Shown here piece by piece: positions 3,433 through 3,722 of a stretch of 64,000 bases of DNA. Position 1 is the first letter of the stretch, and the number at the start of each line of letters is the position of its first letter. Origin of the DNA: Sphingobacteriaceae bacterium DW12 (GTDB lineage: Bacteria > Bacteroidota > Bacteroidia > Sphingobacteriales > Sphingobacteriaceae); the NCBI GenBank assembly GCA_000783305.1, contig JROE01000011.1, positions 62,001 to 126,000 on the forward strand, given 5' to 3'. The notes beneath the pieces are model-generated. The model was given only the letters and a program-made list of their open reading frames with translations. It did no database searches and was not told the DNA's origin. A program made the position numbers and the translations under genes.

Positions 3433-3461
3433 GTTTAATTTTTTTTAAATGAATGATAGTC

Positions 3462-3556
3462 CTGGATTGCTCCAGTCACGCGACAGCAAGTCCACATTTG
3501 ACAGACAAATGCAAAGAACCTCTGTCGTTTTAAGAGATTGCTGAAATTTGGAGCAA
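3462..3556 (-). promoter_or_regulatory. Candidate structured cis-regulatory RNA ahead of the monooxygenase
   Basis: In the minus-strand RNA three nested helices can form: 3549-3556 with 3467-3474 (TTGCTCCA/TGGAGCAA), 3538-3543 with 3484-3489 (CAGCAA/TTGCTG), and 3521-3526 with 3500-3505 (GACAGA/TCTGTC). Two competing helices exist: CATTTG/CAAATG at 3495-3511, and a GCAA-capped hairpin CTGGA/TCCAG at 3462-3475 that uses the 3' arm of the outer helix. Mutually exclusive pairing just before the start codon is what riboswitches and attenuators show. I do not recognise it as a named class. Ligand unknown. Confidence 0.6.
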
Positions 3557-3590
3557 GTGCCCCACATTAAAAAATGATGGTCTGCTAGCG

Positions 3591-3683
3591 CTAAGGTTCG
3601 AAAAAGGGGTAGCTTCTTCCTTTGGTATAGTTTAAGCTACTTAATCGTTGGCTACTTGTATAATCTTTTAAAAATTTACTCAT
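3591..3683 (-). CDS. 30-codon leader ORF upstream of the monooxygenase
   Basis: ATG at 3683 opens 30 codons (starts MSKFLKDYTSS, ends RSYPFFEP, then TAG). The ATG lies only 7 bases after a perfect TATATTTG -7 element, so the mRNA would be leaderless or nearly so at this ORF. Inside it GTAGCTT and AAGCTAC (3634-3640 with 3609-3615) can pair. It ends about 35 bases before the nested helices at 3462-3556, the layout expected for a translated leader that senses ribosome progress. No run of one amino acid stands out. Expression is not shown. Confidence 0.45.
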   Translation of the reverse strand: MSKFLKDYTSSQRLSSLNYTKGRSYPFFEP

Positions 3684-3690
3684 ATTATCG

Positions 3691-3722
3691 CAAATATAAT
3701 AAAAAATAGCGTAATAGTCAAA
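3691..3722 (-). promoter_or_regulatory. Bacteroidota-type promoter of the monooxygenase leader
   Basis: Minus strand: TTTG (3719-3722), 20 bases, TATATTTG (3691-3698). Both boxes match the -33/-7 consensus of Bacteroidota primary sigma factor. Predicted start near 3684, giving a roughly 250-base 5' untranslated region for the gene at 2038-3432. Confidence 0.75.

Follow-up and report, generated by a model that had tools for sequence, protein, structure and literature searches.

A conserved small open reading frame in the long leader of a trimethylamine monooxygenase gene of Bacteroidota, most likely regulatory

The question raised by this locus is what the long leader of a trimethylamine monooxygenase gene, tmm, is for, and whether control would lie in the fold of the RNA or in translation of a small open reading frame (ORF) within it. 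The stretch analysed, called the window here, comprises 64,000 nt from Sphingobacteriaceae bacterium DW12 (GCA_000783305.1, contig JROE01000011.1, positions 62,001-126,000 of the forward strand). The gene tmm is found at 2038..3432 on the minus strand, as assigned by NCBIfam, Pfam and homologues. An earlier note on this DNA had named its product a Tmm-like monooxygenase, and rightly so, as the product reaches 728 bits with the NCBIfam equivalog NF058570 (trimethylamine monooxygenase; cut-off 675) and is FMO-like in Pfam. The substrate of Tmm is trimethylamine, the fish-odour amine, which it oxidises. The homologues indicate as start codon the third ATG in the ORF as listed, at about 3423 and not at 3432. 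This ATG has A at both -3 and -6, and A at these positions is a positive determinant of initiation in Flavobacterium johnsoniae (PMC6847099, in excerpt). The gene for a monomeric isocitrate dehydrogenase (3973-6195; Pfam/NCBIfam) lies upstream and is divergent from tmm, and an intrinsic-terminator-like hairpin was found by terminator scan directly 3' of tmm (1992..2025, minus strand). Two neighbouring SugE-like small multidrug resistance genes, closely similar by eye, are situated downstream (1061-1390 and 1547-1876, minus strand), and a deoxyhypusine-synthase-family gene (51-1025) comes after them. In one other genome of the same genus, G018 (locus L031), tmm was matched in two parts, of which the second contains three in-frame stops, and is probably a pseudogene.

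A sigma-A promoter is predicted by sigma-70 scan at 3691..3721 (minus strand), with TTGACT at 3721-3716 and TATATTTG at 3698-3691. It points at tmm, has a spacer of 17 nt, TTGACT-17-TATATT(TG), and matches at 10 of 12 positions; the scan found 14 sites where 11.4 were expected and is weak evidence when taken alone. The -7 box agrees with the Bacteroidota consensus TAnnTTTG, which in Flavobacterium psychrophilum spans -12 to -5 relative to the start site (PMC9723704, in excerpt), and the same position applied to the window box gives a predicted +1 at about 3686. The consensus promoter that the earlier note had put about 250 bases before the gene can thus be kept as a predicted promoter of the Bacteroidota type, approximately 270 bases ahead of tmm. 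With tmm starting at its third ATG, the leader comes to about 263 nt from the predicted start site, which is long in comparison with the leaders of F. psychrophilum, where the median is 24 and the mean 65 nt for 890 genes (PMC9723704, in excerpt).

The leader ORF MSKFLKDYTSSQRLSSLNYTKGRSYPFFEP (3591..3683, minus strand; ORF list and a homologue in locus L041) has 30 codons, ends with TAG and is nearly leaderless. Its ATG at 3683 stands at predicted +4, i.e., three bases past the predicted transcript start, so that the claim of an ORF beginning almost at the predicted RNA start was confirmed. A search for a conserved 30-codon ORF in homologous tmm leaders, which had been proposed as a check, gave a homologue in L041, belonging to Weeksellaceae bacterium MIP2422, where the tmm leader encodes the related peptide MYTLSVKYSQTQRLNHLHSIKGRSFPFFEP. 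The two peptides have a common end, KGRS(Y/F)PFFEP-stop, and both genes finish with E-P-TAG. BLASTP aligned the peptides at E 7e-11 with 14 of 23 residues identical; only the last 23 residues align, and residues 2-7, after the Met, are without conservation. The ORFs of 15-60 codons that begin with ATG in the fetched loci, except those of L001 and L003, numbered 5440; of these, the L041 ORF scored 79 against the window peptide and the runner-up 33. Over the last 11 codons, stop included, the identities at codon positions 1, 2 and 3 were 10, 10 and 4, and 10 of the 11 codons were identical or synonymous, the remaining one being the Y/F exchange. Over the whole ORF the corresponding identities were 22, 20 and 16 of 31, with dN 0.44 and dS 1.38. 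Differences collected in third codon positions are a signature of selection on the amino acids, and judged from such comparison the small ORF is coding, with its C-terminal part under selection at the amino-acid level. The copy in the same species (L003) differs in two amino acids, residues 3 and 11, both of them positions at which L041 differs too. The -7 box of L041, TATCTTGC, is of the form TAnnTTGY, a variant of the box in F. psychrophilum (PMC9723704, in excerpt), and with the box spacing of the window its ORF begins 1 nt past the predicted 5' end. The prediction for both small ORFs is therefore a leaderless or nearly leaderless start; mRNAs of that form amounted to 5.5% in F. psychrophilum (PMC9723704, in excerpt). 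The two bacteria are distant, and in both the small ORF lies at the same place, has a start of the same predicted geometry and is followed by a homologous gene.

The distribution of the peptide turned out to be narrow. A search with the single peptide sequence covered 395 genomes of the phylum. Profile searches covered the genus (93 genomes), the family to which the window belongs (301) and both the family and the order of G485 (320 and 395); all these sets overlap and hold at most one genome per species, G000 and G053 excepted. Convincing matches were found only in G000 and G053, which are the same species, and in G485, which is MIP2422, each time before tmm. None of the weak matches read, at E 0.004-0.1, ends in PFFEP-stop; that reading did not take in L118, L128, L131, L132 and L134-L137, the last four at E 0.22-0.86. 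Of the 91 distinct tmm leaders, the 88 others gave no homologue in a test by motif and ORF score. The peptide has no match in Pfam, NCBIfam or PHROGs, its best match in PDB is at E 0.85, and one plasmid match has an E of 3. When the other tmm leaders were sorted by an ATG placed after the box, 15 candidates came out, the window pair and 13 others, of which none resembles the peptide and none was conserved on inspection. This rule misses L041, since the box there is TAnnTTGY.

One explanation of such a leader is an RNA switch, in which three nested helices would alternate with a GCAA-capped hairpin and a metabolite would be sensed directly. Every helix can be drawn, and the 8-, 6- and 6-bp helices of the earlier note and the alternative hairpin are all present as complementary segments. 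The outer 8-bp helix pairs 3556-3549 with 3474-3467 (3467..3556, minus strand), the two 6-bp helices form a stem-loop of 3527-3522 with 3486-3481 and 3511-3506 with 3500-3495 (3481..3527, minus strand; P 0.96 and 0.99), and CTGGA-GCAA-TCCAG (3462..3475, minus strand) is the last clear hairpin before tmm. The exclusive pairing of the outer helix and this hairpin was not supported, as P was 0.015 for the helix and 0.97 for its rival, and the outer helix was ruled out as the main state by this value. One more possible hairpin, GGGGC-ACTT-GCTCC (3550..3563, minus strand; P 0.22 alone), competes with the outer helix. Masking of the small-ORF stop codon with two ribosome footprints gave P of 0.011 and 0.000 for the outer helix and 0.98-0.99 for the GCAA hairpin, while P of the GGGGC-ACTT-GCTCC hairpin rose to 0.54 or 0.99. 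Only the latter hairpin and a helix internal to the ORF were altered by masking, while the two hairpins nearest tmm hardly changed.

Comparison of leaders did not favour the switch either. By blastn over the fetched loci the window leader matched only L001, which is the window itself, and L003 from the same species (96.5%), with no match outside the species better than E 0.058. The two leaders differ by six substitutions and two indels; relative to the minimum-energy fold of the window, two substitutions keep a pair, three substitutions and one deletion break one, and one substitution and one insertion are unpaired. The GCAA hairpin sequence is unchanged in L003, and the minimum-energy fold of that leader differs, its middle helix missing. 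Conservation or covariation of the helices in homologous leaders, which the earlier note had proposed as a check, was thus not found, as the only leader to align folds differently. The z-score of the 258-nt window leader was -1.78; 7 of 200 shuffles reached this energy or a lower one, and the leader is thereby only marginally beyond chance. With the last 200 nt z was -2.29 and with a 265-nt cut -1.56; L003 gave -1.74 and L041 -1.19. Taken as a class, the leaders of tmm genes have an unusual amount of structure, which speaks for a switch, with a mean z of -2.65 in 92 rows (91 distinct tmm leaders and a longer cut of the window leader) versus -0.95 in 134 other upstream regions taken from these loci, where the p of 3e-15 is too small since the rows are related and not independent; the leaders of the window, L003 and L041 are less structured than this mean. 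In a scan with Rfam 15 only the tmRNA reached the gathering score in the window, in agreement with the view that the leader fits no known riboswitch class, and just two matches, at E 8.1 and 8.4, fell within 3300-4000. No terminator-like site was found on the coding (minus) strand between the small ORF and tmm, nor on the plus strand of the L041 leader, and no structure common to the two leaders was seen downstream of the small ORF. The window leader matches neither any Rfam family nor the four-hairpin RNA that other tmm leaders carry. Taken together, we consider the directly sensing switch very unlikely.

The four-hairpin RNA stands before tmm in many Bacteroidota, for example at L061 2861-2997, L063 2866-3000 and L014 1378-1508, and at others collected in the alignment A6. 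Its third hairpin mostly keeps GAAUC..GAUUC and the other hairpins covary. In A3, for which MAFFT aligned five leaders from Sphingobacterium, 48 pairs were predicted, and 7 of them were kept with both sides changed. A seven-leader alignment, A4, gave the covariance model R1, and this model and its successors R2 and R3 were searched in the window and 87 of 111 loci, those left out being mostly duplicates of other loci. R1 had 31 matches at E <= 10 in 623 kb on both strands, including the seven training places; of the other 24, 13 had the right strand and lay in a tmm leader, with L016 as the best at E 0.002. The refined R2 had 24 matches at previously untrained places, 14 of them in tmm leaders, and for those at E <= 0.76 the share was 9 of 11. 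The loci of A5 and A6 were chosen by hand to keep matches outside leaders away (L061 and L033 are among those omitted), and the alignments were fitted to the model, which favours covariation in their pair counts. With this reservation, 89.7% of the cells in A6 (18 rows) were paired and 29 of 30 pairs had changes on both sides; the covariation score was 0.629, compared with at most 0.152 for slid partners, and was reached in none of 500 shuffles.

The final model, R3, was further searched in the 93 genomes of the genus, with at most 36 candidates scored per genome, a procedure that failed to find the training row L022, the leader of G050. At E <= 0.1 it gave one match each in 18 genomes, and 17 of these were at the start of tmm. 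The only match off tmm (E 0.027) came from a genome without a tmm match, at a locus without a plus-strand ORF of at least 90 aa. The 17 are training rows or close kin of such, and what counts is therefore that matches elsewhere are nearly absent. A tmm match is present in 30 of the 93 genomes, 13 of which, including G000 and G053, have no R3 match at tmm. R3 found a single match in G000 (E 0.44) and in G053 (E 0.36), both away from tmm, and in G485 none at E <= 1. Within the window and the 87 loci, no match at E <= 10 was obtained for the window, L001, L003 or L041. Unfiltered, the best scores were 11.9 bits in the window (3658-3831, out of 3300-4000), at a place mostly upstream of the predicted transcript start, and 11.7 bits in L041 (2500-3200). 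Lacking an R3 match, the window leader is not explained by the four-hairpin RNA. The two have in common the same gene, a long leader and a last hairpin shortly before the start codon; they differ in that the window has no R3 match, whereas the 88 other leaders have no homologue of the small ORF. Rfam applied to 20 related loci found one Flavo-1 and two tRNAs, all of them outside the tmm leaders. By eye, the Sphingobacterium leaders L042, L049, L009, L010, L005, L050, L061 and L063 share a 5' element consisting of GAAGGAAAA, a hairpin, a UGUAYAAURAUCAUUCA-like stretch and then UCCUUU closing an outer helix, which looks like a separate domain. TCT after the hairpins in tmm leaders was enriched 1.9-fold. 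The four-hairpin RNA is a tractable candidate cis-regulatory RNA for tmm, with covariation, and through it the control of methylated-amine oxidation in Bacteroidota becomes testable.

The history of the gene bears on another explanation, namely that the leader is an ordinary long one and the peptide a functionless relic of a horizontally moved tmm cassette. The 110 tmm-bearing loci were reduced to 91 by dropping L031 and L071, which are partial, and loci with identical proteins. In a 63-row tree the window tmm is not part of the main Sphingobacterium tmm group but clusters with Myroides guanonis, MIP2422 and Empedobacter/Faecalibacter, eight rows in all, with support 100/96; this grouping with Weeksellaceae and Myroides sequences agrees with the relic, and the 91-row tree does not settle the placement. 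The position outside the main group of the genus suggests, on tree topology, either a transfer or an old second lineage. The nearest non-self row to the window tmm in the 63-row tree was at a path of 0.54, and L041 was not among the five nearest. One exclusive tmm clade of the window and L041 was rejected by the AU test (p = 0.008), which makes one recent transfer between them unlikely and counts against the relic. The peptide may have been present in the ancestor of the eight rows and lost or overwritten in the others, or else it may have been exchanged together with the leader. The tmm proteins are far apart, yet the C-terminus of the peptide is intact with diverged third positions, which argues against a relic since a relic would have decayed. 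We find this explanation very improbable.

Two further explanations grant that the ORF is translated. In the first, the ORF only loads ribosomes, so that translation shields the transcript from Rho and RNases or feeds reinitiation at tmm, and nothing is sensed. The near-leaderless start predicted in both species is in line with it, and reinitiation from bacterial leader genes has been proposed (PMC4833913, in excerpt), but the stop codon of the ORF is about 140-170 nt from tmm, which is far for reinitiation. Furthermore, pure loading does not require the C-terminal amino-acid selection with diverged third positions, and the conservation would need another cause. For these reasons we regard loading as improbable. 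In the second, the tmm transcript encodes a small functional protein which works in trans, e.g., on Tmm or a transporter. A conserved 30-residue peptide tied to tmm in two lineages would be expected of such a protein; however, the motif and ORF-score test did not find it in the 88 other tmm leaders, and its alignment is confined to the 23 C-terminal residues with their 14 identities. Besides, a place at the very start of a long leader is typical of regulatory leader ORFs, and the small ORF has such a place. A function in trans seems to us unlikely, with some chance left to it.

We hold with moderate confidence that the region is the leader of a regulated tmm mRNA and that the small ORF is a cis-acting leader peptide with a putative signal-dependent pause at its stop codon. 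That the small ORF is regulatory is the most likely conclusion, and since the tail of the peptide is kept in a distant relative, the peptide probably helps to control tmm. The earlier note had suggested that expression responds to a metabolite or to translation of the small ORF; as regards translation, the ORF proved to be coding and selected, which fits such regulation, and the response itself stays a suggestion. As for mechanism, the leader-peptide gene would be translated from the extreme 5' end of the tmm mRNA, or nearly so, and we infer that it acts in cis. When the signal is present, the ribosome finishing the peptide would pause at the conserved ...PFFEP-stop, where a C-terminal proline after glutamate may provide a slow-termination context. 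The paused ribosome would then change read-through of the 140-170 nt downstream or the translation of tmm. As Tmm oxidises trimethylamine, one would naturally think of a signal connected with methylated amines. In Escherichia coli a C-terminal proline can stall termination, and D-P and E-P before the stop are named as triggers of high ssrA tagging (PMC7246954, in excerpt, citing Hayes 2002). The same source describes that E-P-stop caused no drop of expression in a Mycoplasma assay, which counts against arrest. We also counted against the leader peptide its occurrence in two lineages only, the unconserved residues 2-7 and the more even codon-position identities over the whole ORF, the missing Trp, the weakly structured L041 leader and its lack of a downstream structure in common with the window leader, the lack of a terminator-like site before tmm, and the small effect of stop-codon masking on the hairpins nearest tmm. 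A more far-reaching proposal is that Bacteroidota possess two unrelated tmm leader devices, the four-hairpin RNA, which occurs in many lineages and almost exclusively ahead of tmm, and, in the species of the window and one Weeksellaceae bacterium, a leaderless arrest peptide with the end KGRS(Y/F)PFFEP which would sense a methylated amine or an oxidation product of it in the ribosome exit tunnel. We offer it as a speculation and think it rather doubtful.

Within the literature searched, mostly open access, no description of such leaders was met under trimethylamine or its monooxygenase combined with riboswitch or structured RNA. The titles returned on leader and arrest peptides in Bacteroidetes (PMC13009471, PMC12857756 and PMC4833913, in excerpt) named no such case, subscription journals and preprints being largely outside that search. 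Among known systems, leader-peptide attenuation is described before amino-acid biosynthesis operons of F. psychrophilum (PMC9723704, in excerpt). The window shares with it a leader peptide in a 5' region of Bacteroidota; it differs in that the peptide has no run of a single regulatory amino acid, the coding strand has no terminator-like site between ORF and gene, and tmm is not biosynthetic. An amino-acid attenuator was rejected on account of the first two of these features. TAG, the stop of the window ORF, is an RF1 codon, and this gives a likeness to SpeFL. SpeFL, which senses ornithine, is of about the length of the window peptide and, unlike it, ends in an arginine codon. It is described as an inhibitor of RF1-mediated release (PMC8429421, in excerpt); it belongs to another gene in another phylum, and ornithine is not implicated for the window. 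TnaC, of the tryptophanase operon in E. coli, is likewise encoded by a short leader ORF of a catabolic gene and has a proline directly before the stop. Its critical residues are Trp12, Asp16, Ile19 and Pro24 (PMC8429421, in excerpt), of which only the terminal proline has a counterpart in the window peptide. The latter lacks Trp and shows no sequence relation to TnaC, and TnaC proper was ruled out in consequence; the nearly leaderless start, as predicted, is a feature of the window. Perhaps the ribosome is arrested at E-P-stop in the manner of TnaC and SpeFL at their stop codons. By its conservation together with tmm in two lineages only, and with its predicted promoter, the small ORF appears to be a regulatory leader peptide of the general kind, another and previously unannotated one with a putative function. 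If the peptide does arrest ribosomes, Bacteroidota would have in it a catabolic leader peptide, on a nearly leaderless mRNA and before a gene for trimethylamine oxidation.
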